DNA from: Bacillus sp. Cs-700
Lineage (GTDB): Bacteria > Bacillota > Bacilli > Bacillales > Guptibacillaceae
Direction: 5' to 3'
DNA: 64,000 nt
Assembly (NCBI RefSeq): GCF_011082085.1
Contig: NZ_CP041063.1
Span: forward strand, 3,520,001-3,584,000
Positions 23,410 through 41,327 of this stretch are shown here, one piece after another (within the stretch, counting starts at the first letter, position 1; the number at the start of each line of letters is the position of its first letter). The translations under genes were made by a program, and so were the position numbers. Below the pieces are notes generated by a model. The model saw only the letters and a list, made by a program, of their open reading frames with translations. It searched no databases and was not told the DNA's origin.

Positions 23410-24690
23410 TTAAAAACGGAAGGAGATACGTTCTTCTTTTCCTTCATTTAGTGACTTCACGATAATCTCGTTATTTATTACTTCTTCGTTTCCAATAAGG
23501 ATGACTTTTTCGATCCCTCTTTTACTCGCTCGCTCAAGAGATTTCCCTATTCTCTTTTCACTCATATCAACTTCAATTCGATAACCTAATTTCCGATAAG
23601 CCGATGCAACAATTAACGCTTCTCGCTTTGCATCGATCGGAATAATAACATAGTCAGGTTTTTCATCTTTAACGATTGCTGACTCCCTTCCTTTTAATGC
23701 AGTGAAAATCACATCAAGACCGAACGAAATGCCAACAGTTGAAAAGGACTCTTCACTGCCAAGTAAACCACCGATGGCACGATCATAGCGACCGCCACTG
23801 CCAATGCTGGATGAGATGGATTGATCATTGAGAAAAATCTCGTAAATCGTTCCGGTATAAATATCAAGGCCTCTTGCAAGAAACGGGTTAAAGGAACAAT
23901 TTTGAAGAACGTTAAGGCCATCCAAATAGGATGTCAGTTCGGAAAGCTCATTTAATCCTTTTTGCACATTCTCATTCTCGATGACAAGTTGTTCAAAATA
24001 AGTGAGGTCTTGACCGAGCCACTCCTGTGCGTAGCGCTCAACGTTACGAATTGCTTCCGGGGAGATGTTTTTTTGTTGAAGCTCCTTTTTTACACCGTCT
24101 ATTCCAATTTTCTCAAGTTTGTCCATTGTAAGAATGACCTCATTTAATCGCGAGATAGGGATCGATAGGGTCTGTAGCATCCCAGCGAGGAGCTTGCGAT
24201 TGTTATATTGAATCGTTACGTTAAGTCCAAGTTGATTAAAACCATCAAGCGCCATTTCCATTAATTCGGCTTCAGCCATCTGCGAACTTACCCCGGTGAT
24301 ATCGACATCACATTGAGTAAACTCCCGGAATCGCCCTGGTTTCACAGGTCCATCTCGAAATACTTTTCCGATTTCATATCGCTTGAAGGGCATGCGTAAA
24401 CCCGGATTCATTGCGACTACTTTAGCGAATGGAATCGTAAGGTCGTAGCGAAGAGCAAGCTCTCTTTTCCCACGATCGGTGAGTGTGTACATTTCTTCTA
24501 AAATTTCATCACCACCAGCGTATTTAGAAGCCATTAGGGTTTGTTCATTCAGAATAGGCGTTTCGATCGGAAGACAGTTATATTGGATAAACGTATCTTC
24601 AAGGATTCTCCTCACTTGTCTGCGTATTCGCTCATCCTCAGGTAAATAATCCATTGTTCCTTTTACATTTTGATTTTTTAGCTTTTTCAA
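23410..24690 (-). CDS. hisS: Histidyl-tRNA synthetase, second-type (HisS2-like)
   Basis: A 426-residue class II synthetase that charges tRNA-His. Motif 2 is KRYEIGKVFRDGPVKPGRFREFTQCD; the His-specific motifs are ARGLDIYTGTIYEIF and GGRYDRAIGGL; motif 3 is VGISFGLDV; a C-terminal anticodon-binding domain follows (about 325-426). Catalytic residues look intact, so it is a synthetase and not the HisZ regulator. It stands alone and not next to aspS, which is the normal hisS place in bacilli, so I infer a second copy. I start at TTG 24690 (AAAGGA eight bases upstream). It is preceded by a His leader peptide and attenuator. Confidence 0.9.
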   Translation of the reverse strand: MKKLKNQNVKGTMDYLPEDERIRRQVRRILEDTFIQYNCLPIETPILNEQTLMASKYAGGDEILEEMYTLTDRGKRELALRYDLTIPFAKVVAMNPGLRMPFKRYEIGKVFRDGPVKPGRFREFTQCDVDITGVSSQMAEAELMEMALDGFNQLGLNVTIQYNNRKLLAGMLQTLSIPISRLNEVILTMDKLEKIGIDGVKKELQQKNISPEAIRNVERYAQEWLGQDLTYFEQLVIENENVQKGLNELSELTSYLDGLNVLQNCSFNPFLARGLDIYTGTIYEIFLNDQSISSSIGSGGRYDRAIGGLLGSEESFSTVGISFGLDVIFTALKGRESAIVKDEKPDYVIIPIDAKREALIVASAYRKLGYRIEVDMSEKRIGKSLERASKRGIEKVILIGNEEVINNEIIVKSLNEGKEERISFRF

Positions 24691-24722
24691 AACGCTCATC
24701 CTTTCGTTTTTTGAATACAAAA

Positions 24723-24765
24723 AACCGCATGAATGGGAGAAGATTTCTTCTCAAATCATGCGGTT
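24723..24765 (-). terminator. Attenuator terminator in the hisS leader
   Basis: Arms AACCGCATGA/TCATGCGGTT (24756-24765 and 24723-24732 on the minus strand) enclose GAGAAG/CTTCTC; six T residues follow. It lies between the leader peptide and hisS, so it must be read through for hisS expression. Confidence 0.88.
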
Positions 24766-24816
24766 ACGAGTAATAGCCTTCCTATACGCGATTTTTTTAT
24801 CAATCGGATAGCAAGG

Positions 24817-24858
24817 CTAACTGTGATGATGAAGTTGTACGATGATTAACTGTTGCAT
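24817..24858 (-). CDS. His leader peptide (13 residues, three consecutive His codons)
   Basis: Translation: MQQLIIVQLHHHS. ATG 24858 has GAGGTG seven bases upstream. The three His codons (CAT CAT CAC, 24831-24823) end four residues before... directly ahead of Ser and the TAG stop at 24819-24817. The stop is part of the 5' arm TAGCCTT (24819-24813) that pairs with AAGGCTA (24780-24774); a ribosome stalled on His codons would cover that arm. Together with the terminator this has the form of a classical ribosome-mediated attenuator. Too short for ORF callers. Confidence 0.8.
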   Translation of the reverse strand: MQQLIIVQLHHHS

Positions 24859-24882
24859 ATCGCTCACCTCTTATTTCCAAAT

Positions 24883-24911
24883 ATGGTAGCATACGAAAAT
24901 AGTTAAGGCAA
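24883..24911 (-). promoter_or_regulatory. Sigma-A promoter of the leader peptide-hisS transcript
   Basis: TTGCCT (24911-24906), 17-base spacer, TACCAT (24888-24883) on the minus strand. Transcription would start about 20 bases before the leader peptide, leaving no room for a T-box. Confidence 0.55.
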
Positions 24912-24971: not shown

Positions 24972-25895
24972 ATGAAAAACCTTACAAAAGAAAAGATCAT
25001 CACTAGGATCCCTGAATTAACTGATGAGACACTGATTCCAATTACAAAAGAATATTCGTTTGATTTAAAATACGTAACACATTGGAAGGGACAGCGAGTG
25101 TTGCTTCGGATCTATGACCTCGCTTTAAGTGAGCGCGTACAAGAAAAAGTAGCAAAGATGCGTGCGTTCAGGGAGCGTGGTGTTCGATGTCAGGAAGTGT
25201 ATGCCTTTGGTGTAATACCGGAAGAAAATTTCTGTTACACGATTTTTTCTTTTCTTGAAGGAGAAGATGGCGAGGTGGCGTTACCTAGCTTAACGGAGGC
25301 TGAACAATACAGAGCGGGGTATGAAGCGGGAGTAGATCTTTTGAAGATGCACGAATTGCCCATCGTTTCCTCTAAATCCGAGCATATAGCTTTTGTGAAA
25401 ACGAAGTTTGAGAAGGCGGTGGAGCGGCATTTGAAACTCGAAACACGTATTCCACATGATCAAGAGATAATAGATTATGTGAGGAGAAACTTGCCACTTA
25501 TTGGAGAGAGTAAGCTTGTATTTGCGCATCATGATTATCATGCAGGAAACCTGATTATTCAGCATGGAAAGTATGCTGGTGTGATTGATTTTAACCGATG
25601 TGGTGTAAACACAGCTTATTCTGAGTTTGATAAGCTTGAATTGTTTTCGAGTCGCTTGAGCATTCCTTTTTCAAAAGGGATGATTCAAGGATACTTTTCT
25701 GACGAAGTTCCTGATCTCTTTTGGAAGATTCGTTCGGTACATATGGCACAGATTCTGATCTATCATATGAATTGGGCAACGGATTTCTTTCCACAAGATC
25801 TTTCACTTGCCGAAGAAGCAATAGAATATGTTCTAGAGACATATGATGGTTTTCATCGAATGGTTCCAAAATGGTATGAAGAAAGCCAGGCATAG
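24972..25895 (+). CDS. Aminoglycoside-phosphotransferase-family kinase
   Basis: A 307-residue APH/choline-kinase-fold protein. The catalytic loop is LVFAHHDYHAGNLIIQ (Brenner-type HxDxxxxN, Asp about 199) and the metal loop is GVIDFNRCG. The family phosphorylates small alcohols or sugars, and resistance enzymes are only a small part; nothing points to a drug. GAAAGGCGGG precedes the ATG. It is divergent from the hisS leader. Function beyond kinase fold is unknown. Confidence 0.82.
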   Translation: MKNLTKEKIITRIPELTDETLIPITKEYSFDLKYVTHWKGQRVLLRIYDLALSERVQEKVAKMRAFRERGVRCQEVYAFGVIPEENFCYTIFSFLEGEDGEVALPSLTEAEQYRAGYEAGVDLLKMHELPIVSSKSEHIAFVKTKFEKAVERHLKLETRIPHDQEIIDYVRRNLPLIGESKLVFAHHDYHAGNLIIQHGKYAGVIDFNRCGVNTAYSEFDKLELFSSRLSIPFSKGMIQGYFSDEVPDLFWKIRSVHMAQILIYHMNWATDFFPQDLSLAEEAIEYVLETYDGFHRMVPKWYEESQA

Positions 25896-40020: not shown

Positions 40021-40033
40021 GAAAAAAATAACT

Positions 40034-40296
40034 TAGCGATGAGGAAGAAGAGTAATCTTGAGTGACACTTTAGAGAGCTGATGGTTGGTGGAAATCAGCG
40101 TGTGCGACAGATGAATGGGCTTCTGAGCTTCCGAAACTGAACAATTTAGTAGGATTCGGCGGAGCGTCTTACCGATACAAAAGACACCTTATCGAAACGG
40201 GTTTCTGTAAGGGTAAGTGCGTTTACGTCTGTAAACGAATAAAGGTGGCACCACGGGGTCTCTCGTCCTTTTTTTAGAGGATGAGGGGCCTTTTTG
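40034..40296 (+). ncRNA. T-box leader of trpS (Trp specifier)
   Basis: Stem I begins with GCGATGAGGAAGAAGAGTA and AGAGAGCTGATGGTTGGTGG; the specifier bulge carries TGG at 40116-40118 (GAATGGGCTTCTGAGC), matching tryptophan. The T-box proper is AAAGGTGGCACCACGG at 40242-40257. The terminator pairs GGGTCTCTCGTCC with AGGATGAGGGGCC and ends in T5. Uncharged tRNA-Trp would favour the antiterminator and trpS expression. Confidence 0.95.
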
Positions 40297-40322
40297 TGTT
40301 GTATTTAAATGGAGGGGATCTT

Positions 40323-41327
40323 ATGGGAAAGACAATTGTAACAGGAATTAAACCAACAGGACGGGTACACTTAGGGAATTATATTGGTGCCATTAAACCT
40401 GCGTTAGAGCAAGCACGAATTGAGGAGCTAGACCCAGTCTATTTTGTTGCCGATTATCATGGATTAACGAAAGTTCGAGATCAGAAACAGATGCAAGAAT
40501 TATCATATGGGATTGCGGCCACATGGCTTGCTCTCGGGCTAGATCCGGATAAAGTTATTTTCTATCGCCAGTCAGATGTACCTGAAATTTTTGAACTATC
40601 ATGGGTTCTGGCTTGTTTTACACCTAAAGGTTTGATGAATCGGGCTCATGCGTATAAAGCCATTGTCGAAAAGAATCGTAAGGAAGAACGTGAAGAGGAC
40701 GAAGGAGTAAACATGGGGCTATTCACTTATCCGATCTTAATGGCTTCAGATATATTATTGTTTCAATCCCAATACGTTCCTGTAGGCAAAGACCAAATCC
40801 AACATGTAGAGATTGCACGTGATGTTGCGTCAACTATTAACCACCAATTTGGAGAAATATTTACAATGCCAGATCACATAGTCGATGAAAACACATCGGT
40901 GCTCCCTGGACTGGACGGTAGAAAGATGAGTAAAAGTTATCATAATACGATTCCACTGTTTGAAGAGCCTGCTAAGCTTAAGAAGTTAATCAATCGTATT
41001 ACAACGGATTCAACAGGGCCAACGGATCCAAAAAATCCAAACGACTCGACTGTTTTTACACTGTATAAGGAGTTTGCAAGTGAAGAACAGACGGTTAAAA
41101 TGAGAAAGAGATTTGAAGAAGGAATAGGATGGGGTGAAGCGAAAAAAGAGCTTTTTCTCGTAATGAATGATTTTCTTTCCGAACCACGCGAAACGTTCCG
41201 CTACTATATGTCTCACAAGGGTGAACTTGACCGCATCCTTGAAGAAGGTGCAAAGAAAGCAAGGGCAAAAGCGCAACCGTTATTACATGAAGTGAAAAGA
41301 AAGCTTGGTATTCGGGGGCACACTTAA
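40323..41327 (+). CDS. trpS: Tryptophanyl-tRNA synthetase
   Basis: A 334-residue class I synthetase: HIGH-type motif GRVHLGNYIG (residues about 11-20), specificity segment KDQIQHVEIARDVA, and KMSKS in LDGRKMSKSYHNT (about 200). It joins tryptophan to tRNA-Trp. ATG 40323 follows GGAGGGG; the frame start at 40281 is inside the leader terminator. The T-box with a Trp specifier upstream confirms the assignment. It differs in pattern (GIKPTGRVHLGN, CFTPKGLMNRAHAYK) from the usual B. subtilis TrpS and may be the second-type enzyme. Confidence 0.95.
   Translation: MGKTIVTGIKPTGRVHLGNYIGAIKPALEQARIEELDPVYFVADYHGLTKVRDQKQMQELSYGIAATWLALGLDPDKVIFYRQSDVPEIFELSWVLACFTPKGLMNRAHAYKAIVEKNRKEEREEDEGVNMGLFTYPILMASDILLFQSQYVPVGKDQIQHVEIARDVASTINHQFGEIFTMPDHIVDENTSVLPGLDGRKMSKSYHNTIPLFEEPAKLKKLINRITTDSTGPTDPKNPNDSTVFTLYKEFASEEQTVKMRKRFEEGIGWGEAKKELFLVMNDFLSEPRETFRYYMSHKGELDRILEEGAKKARAKAQPLLHEVKRKLGIRGHT

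Follow-up and report, generated by a model that had tools for sequence, protein, structure and literature searches.

The window, a 64,000-nucleotide stretch of Bacillus sp. Cs-700 DNA, carries on its minus strand a second histidyl-tRNA synthetase gene of the PRK12420 type, hisS2, which probably starts at the TTG at 24690, as judged from homologues. Read along the minus strand from 24911 to 24690, promoter-like hexamers are followed by a ribosome binding site, a short reading frame with a run of His codons, a hairpin (hairpin I), a linker, an intrinsic terminator and the HisRS gene (Table 1). The canonical hisS of the same genome lies at about 1.272 Mb and has a T-box of 129.9 bits upstream. 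T-boxes are the usual control of Bacillus synthetase genes, but none is present at hisS2: a search of the upstream region with the Rfam model RF00230 at its gathering threshold gave no match, in agreement with the first-pass annotation of this DNA, which had been made from the sequence alone. A hisZ-like gene is found at 1.942 Mb; the 600 nt 5' of it hold frames with two His codons, and no comparable scaffold was seen there. Among the matches listed, from which very near records may have been left out, the nearest named relatives of hisS2 belong to Pseudalkalibacillus hwajinpoensis strains and their neighbours, with protein identity of up to 91%. Elsewhere in the window a T-box (131.8 bits, 40030-40273, plus strand) precedes a tryptophanyl-tRNA synthetase-like gene, named by eye (trpS-like, 40281-41327, plus strand), and two types of synthetase control, T-box and leader peptide, therefore occur in one window. 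The gene on the other side of the leader (24972-25895, plus strand) points away from hisS2 and is distant kin of the APH(3') phosphotransferases; at 33.5 bits against a cut-off of 205 for the APH(3') model, it is not a recognised resistance gene.

Table 1. Features of the hisS2 leader and gene in the window
Feature	Position	Strand	Basis or remark
Weak sigma-A-like promoter, TTGCCT-17-TACCAT	24883..24911	-	8 of 12 consensus letters, by eye
Ribosome binding site of the leader frame, AGAGGTGA	24864..24871	-	same or similar motif before homologous frames
Leader frame, MQQLIIVQLHHHS, 13 codons	24817..24858	-	ATG at 24858, stop TAG at 24819-24817
Three His codons, CAT CAT CAC	24823..24831	-	exactly three also in 73 of 81 recognised leaders
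Hairpin I (segments 1 and 2), leader stop codon in its base	24774..24819	-	folding, covariation (helices 1 and 2)
Linker 3' of hairpin I, here TTACTCGT, eight bases	24766..24773	-	alignments, motif count
Intrinsic terminator (segments 3 and 4) with T tract	24719..24765	-	folding, covariation (helix 3)
Second histidyl-tRNA synthetase gene hisS2 (PRK12420 type)	23410..24690	-	NF009085, 599 bits, cut-off 540

The first-pass annotation had described a 13-codon frame with a good ribosome binding site and three consecutive His codons ahead of the HisRS gene, placed between a sigma-A promoter and a strong terminator. The frame, its binding site and its His codons are all there in the sequence. The terminator has a hairpin of -22.5 kcal/mol (24765-24723) with a six-T run at its end, two T of which lie inside the stem, and a simple terminator pattern scan did not pick it up. 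The promoter is weak, and a scan with a limit of 9 of 12 letters found no promoter upstream of the leader. Hairpin I (-19.4 kcal/mol) has the proposed TAGCCTT/AAGGCTA stem as its base, and its first paired letters are the leader stop codon. The 171-nt leader as a whole is far more stable than shuffled versions of itself (z -5.55, 0 of 200 as good). As in an attenuator, an intrinsic terminator stands between leader and gene, and the His-codon run matches the amino acid of the controlled gene; that the frame is translated is suggested by its ribosome binding site and its conservation. Control of the HisRS gene by a His-codon leader and a terminator is a prediction that conservation supports well.

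Among 94 hisS2 loci, several of which represent one genome sampled twice, 91 have a short frame with a ribosome binding site and at least two His codons, and the His codons are thus conserved in homologous leaders, where their absence had been named as a ground for refuting the annotation. The three loci without such a frame (L017, L042 and L062) had no T-box in an Rfam search either. One or the other of two text patterns recognised hairpin I at 86 of the 94 loci, and in 85 of these the frame ends at the hairpin. For further counts we reduced 124 leaders (the loci plus the hits of the covariance model R1, see below) to 81 non-redundant ones, all with a recognised leader and terminator; 61 of the 81, and the 60 sequences of alignment A1, were chosen by the hairpin I text pattern together with a recognised leader and terminator, and loci failing this selection were dropped (8 of the 94 without the hairpin I pattern, and 4 more left out). 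A frame with a ribosome binding site and three His codons in a row is present in 74 of the 81 leaders and in none of 4050 dinucleotide-shuffled versions of these stretches, a count drawn from loci already recognised for leader and terminator, for which 91 of 94 is the wider figure. The leader stop is TAG in 71 of the 81, CAT accounts for 225 of the 240 His codons within runs, and exactly two codons separate the run from the stop in 63, the window having one. A CAA codon stands two codons ahead of the His run in 47 of the 60 sequences of A1, followed in many by a Leu or Phe codon. We considered a further small frame past hairpin I (ATGAAACCGCAT) and rejected it, as it is present in some species and lost in others (CATTAAACC).

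To survey the element more widely we searched 397 genomes of the order with R1, a covariance model built from 60 His leaders. A match at E 0.001 or better was found in 65 genomes, spread over 29 of 135 genera, and the element before hisS2 was the only match in the whole genome under study. By protein family search hisS2 itself is patchy, with 61 genes in 60 of the 397 genomes, and 59 of the 61 have the element on the same strand within 600 nt upstream, with a median of 40 nt between it and the point where the family match begins; the two genes without it are in G001 and G279. The association has a nominal Fisher p of 4e-59, which ignores relatedness and comes from a model trained on leaders of hisS2 itself, partly from the genomes in which the association was counted. 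Eight R1 hits fall elsewhere: two orphan His leaders (G064 and G160), two leaders with Gln codons (G215 and G238), one on the reverse strand of an element (G155) and three weak ones (G057, G276 and G319). Outside the order, a His leader precedes hisS2 in three genomes of the class. A further model, R2, matched 9 of 398 class genomes at E 0.01 and 75 of 397 order genomes at E 0.1; in the search for leaders of other amino acids, G467 and G492, which failed the text pattern, and further weak order-level R2 places were left unread. Twelve weak R2 places and three weak R1 places (L150-L152) look like ordinary terminators or chance and were set aside. The orphan leaders, one well kept (L125 in G064) and one decaying (L141 in G160), are in genomes without a hisS2 match and may be remnants or new uses; L125 now lies ahead of a HAD-like hydrolase gene, named by eye. 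One genome (G389) has two hisS2 copies (L108 and L129), each with its own His leader and each consisting of a short N-terminal frame and then a second frame that repeats part of the first, which suggests a gene that is broken or carries an internal duplication.

The two hits with Gln codons were found by a model trained on His leaders only, at E 3.1e-12 (G215) and E 2.2e-8 (G238). In both genomes a methyltransferase gene comes next and then glnS, as identified by eye; the methyltransferase of G215, the one tested, has Pfam domain PF10672 and a PUA-like domain. We examined 35 genomes of the family of G238, which we take to contain Evansella tamaricis, since L200 (G768) and L079 share letters. 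All 35 have glnS, and a Gln-containing leader lies upstream of the methyltransferase-glnS operon in all nine examined genomes of the related genera g58 and g105; in genus g116, two genomes with the same gene pair showed no Gln leader. The nine frames are MNTPIRRQQQQI, MLTARSVHVQQQK, MNARLQLQQQN, MKNAHTYMTIQQQQ, MIPLIRVQFQLQR, three near-identical ones with VQFQRQ, and MILYRAQQQHKLCFFPRAEQ, and the last four of these have lost the stop codon in the hairpin. With filters off, R1 scored 78.0, 59.4, 31.7, 29.4, 26.1, 25.7, 22.9 and 21.2 bits in eight of the nine stretches (21,309 bases in all), each at E 0.0095 or better, and 6.9 bits in the stretch from G140 (E 8.6, not significant). By comparison, R1 gives 25.0 bits to the window element read on its opposite strand and 19.3 bits to the G215 element read likewise, so that the low-scoring Gln leaders count mainly through their place and their codons. 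Three Gln codons adjacent or one apart, with a ribosome binding site, occur in 8 of the 9 stretches and in 6 of 4500 shuffles, and three in a row with a binding site in 4 of the 9 and in 2 of 4500, the frames having been picked for Gln or His content before the shuffle test. Some of the Gln leaders also have the CAA and Leu or Phe codons ahead of the sensor run.

No hisS2 was found at E 1e-120 in the nine genomes with a Gln leader, two of which are only 80% complete, while it is present in 10 of the other 26. It is very probable that the scaffold exchanged its His codons for Gln codons, in part through changes at the third base (CAT or CAC to CAA or CAG). The simplest history would be that hisS2 was lost, the leader was captured by the glnS operon and the codons then changed. 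We found no report of a Gln leader of glnS in the open-access literature, which is not proof of absence. The Gln form also bears on the reading that the small frame is a matter of chance or has no regulatory role, the hairpins merely terminating an upstream unit. Frames predicted in silico can arise by chance, but the identity of the sensor codons follows the downstream gene, His with hisS2 and Gln with glnS; added to the counts against shuffles, the presence of the element before nearly every hisS2 gene and an upstream neighbour that points away, leaving nothing upstream that needs terminating, this makes such a reading extremely improbable.

The pairing of hairpin I and the terminator was examined in 35 diverse sequences, including two Gln forms. 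In the alignment 97.0% of the cells are paired and 14 of 21 pairs have changed on both sides; 0 of 500 shuffles were as good and slid versions reached 36-51%, with a structure derived from the same alignment that was used for the covariation test. In a swap test on 36 non-redundant sequences, where each segment was paired with its own partner or with partners from other species, segments 1:2 (z -11.4) and 3:4 (z -11.8) both co-vary strongly, with 0 of 1000 permutations as good. We take both helices as real on the strength of this sequence comparison, and the 1:2 stem over the leader stop and the 3:4 terminator of the first-pass annotation are upheld.

The same annotation had completed the classical four-segment scheme, in which a ribosome stalled on the His codons blocks segment 1 and a 2:3 antiterminator prevents the terminator 3:4. 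The letters proposed for the antiterminator, AATCGCG (24793-24787) and CGC-AT-GATT, are present in the window, but RNAduplex joins them by 3 pairs at -3.2 kcal/mol, against -22.5 for the terminator. Segments 2:3 do not co-vary in the swap test (z -0.6, own -4.42 versus swapped -4.30 kcal/mol), with 301 of 1000 permutations as good where 1:2 and 3:4 had none, and consensus folding of sub-alignments without segments 1 and 4 gave no 2:3 structure (energy 0). Nor was co-variation with segment 3 detected for segment 1 (z -0.4), the leader (z 0.1), the linker or the upstream region; the best upstream partner of segment 3 varies between sequences, and no conserved antiterminator was found. A hairpin within segment 2 (ATAG/CTAT), which forms with segment 1 covered, was rejected because by eye it is lost in the Gln leaders and in some others.

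We placed a ribosome on the leader, assuming from general knowledge that its footprint ends 12 nt beyond the first base of the A site. Over the 81 leaders the footprint covers on average 1% of the hairpin I pairs when the A site holds the first His codon, 12% at the second, 28% at the third, and 68% with the ribosome at the stop codon. At the first His codon no pair is covered in 67 of the 81 leaders, and one pair in the window; with this footprint, a ribosome stalled there does not break the hairpin. A ribosome at the second or third His codon would partly open it, and with the third codon in the A site scattered 2:3 pairs do appear (mean 4.6 per sequence over 60 sequences), as the classical scheme would have it. 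The terminator pairs, in contrast, keep a mean probability of 0.94-0.95 across all modelled ribosome states, and since the terminator forms in every state, thermodynamics alone gives no switch. The classical 1:2, 2:3, 3:4 switch is therefore not borne out, and we regard it as quite improbable. It needs a stalled ribosome to break hairpin I, while here it is the ribosome that finishes the leader which does so, and this leads us to suggest, tentatively, hairpin I as the read-through state.

The best explanation overall, to which we give a probability of roughly 70%, is a His-tRNA-sensing attenuator along the lines set out here. Taken by itself, that the element is a ribosome-mediated transcription attenuator sensing charged tRNA-His is very likely on the sequence evidence. 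With enough His-tRNA, the ribosome would reach the UAG stop, its footprint would open hairpin I and the polymerase would end at the terminator. When His-tRNA is scarce, the ribosome would wait at the first His codon, hairpin I would stay closed and more transcripts would read through into hisS2. The closed hairpin may act on the polymerase that has just made it, as a signal for pausing or antitermination in which the conserved linker takes part. We suggest this since the search for an antiterminator found none, and we only tentatively propose hairpin I as the state that the polymerase reads. The direction of the response, with starvation turning the gene on, is assumed from biology. With the leader's stop codon forming part of the base of a hairpin that would promote read-through, it would be finishing and not stalling that rearranges the RNA, and an untranslated leader would be on, unlike in classical attenuators; taken by itself, such a reversed switch is on the unlikely side. 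The wider picture, that of an attenuator scaffold which lacks an antiterminator, can exchange its sensor codons, moved from hisS2 to glnS and is rearranged by finishing of the leader, is rather unlikely as a whole.

The linker and the lower arm of the terminator keep letters beyond the needs of pairing. Across the 35 diverse sequences, among them the Gln forms L144 and L146, conservation reaches 90% or more in CTATT, which follows hairpin I, and in most of AACCGCA; that CTTGCT and AGGAAG never vary in A1 is of no use here, because its 60 sequences were picked with those letters. In most relatives the linker reads TTT-n-TCAT following CTA. Its likeness to TTNTTT, the NusG pause motif, is loose: the motif is present in strict form in 8 of the 81 leaders and as YTNTTT in 58, and the window linker, CTATTACTC, does not have TTNTTT. 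From its sequence the linker is a possible RNA polymerase pause region. Letters kept in this way would also be expected if a protein or other trans factor bound, for example, hairpin I or the linker and the leader ribosome merely competed with it, but they may also reflect polymerase pausing, and we consider a trans factor distinctly unlikely.

The first-pass annotation had called ribosome-mediated His attenuation rarely described for such genes, which is nearly right. In a screen for premature terminators, Naville and Gautheret (2010, PMC2965389) arrived at a predicted His leader for hisS*, a Bacillus hisS paralogue, and for hisZ of bacilli, and Ashniev et al. (2022, PMC9413887) described His attenuators before the his operon in the B. 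cereus group. From the text of the 2010 paper, hisS* appears to be the PRK12420-type gene. Its leaders and those of hisS2 have in common a short His-codon frame and a premature terminator before a bacilli hisS paralogue, a match by description and not by letters. The window element is not a new kind, as a His leader of the hisS paralogue had already been predicted. Section 10 of that paper names neither an antiterminator nor a Gln form and does not say where the stop codon lies; the Gln relative before glnS is apparently new, and it and the unusual geometry with the hairpin at the stop codon go beyond the known kind. A search of the open-access literature for hisS2 in Bacillus returned nothing relevant, which is not proof of absence, and the literature consulted showed no experiment on the hisS2 leader.

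Other systems share parts of the arrangement. In the B. subtilis leaders of vmlR, tlrB and bmrCD a ribosome on a short frame likewise controls a terminator, as described in the sections consulted, though these answer to antibiotics and not to one amino acid (for bmrCD see PMC4191407). For vmlR, leader translation and a NusG-dependent pause are reported to control the terminator, with GCUAUUU and UUAUUU among the letters tested (PMC9226507). We count this as a B. subtilis precedent that supports leader translation plus a pause for the hisS2 leader, although for vmlR, unlike here, an antiterminator was proposed in the same report. The uORFC-8-2 motif before cysS in Rhodobacterales (PMC8632094) is, in the part consulted, also a codon-matched leader frame before a synthetase gene; it belongs to another phylum and another amino acid, and the comparison covers the frame and the gene behind it.

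Enterobacterial hisL has in common with the hisS2 leader a His-codon run, a leader stop TAG and then a hairpin. In the E. coli his leader (L241, 401-468), TAGTCTTTCAG and CTGGAAGAC are placed much as in the Bacillus hairpin I. Homology between the two was considered and set aside, as R1 gave 8.1 bits (E 0.2 in 866 bases, next best 7.2), which is not significant, and the likeness is perhaps convergence. The E. coli his leader works by mutually exclusive hairpins, which we did not find in the hisS2 leaders.

PMC9226507, as far as consulted, reports that in B. subtilis the RNA polymerase runs ahead of the first ribosome, and leader-peptide sensing of an amino acid should therefore be hard. That the His leader is present across 29 genera suggests that selection keeps such a device nonetheless, and raises the question of how the ribosome catches up. 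With its Gln codons, the glnS leader amounts to a natural codon-swap experiment, with the same RNA, another codon and another synthetase, and makes both the sensing and the geometry of a hairpin at the stop codon directly testable in Bacillus.

One further signal came from the swap test. The region before and around the leader start appears to co-vary with segment 2 plus the linker (z -3.7; none of 1000 permutations did as well), and in windows (z -5.0 and -2.9) the signal exceeded that of every other non-overlapping combination among the 36 compared, in a set where relatedness was not separated from it, single linkage having put 80 of the 81 sequences in one cluster. It is a hint from sequence that pairing of the leader start and ribosome binding site region with segment 2 and the linker could shut off re-initiation, a step that the mechanism proposed here does not use.
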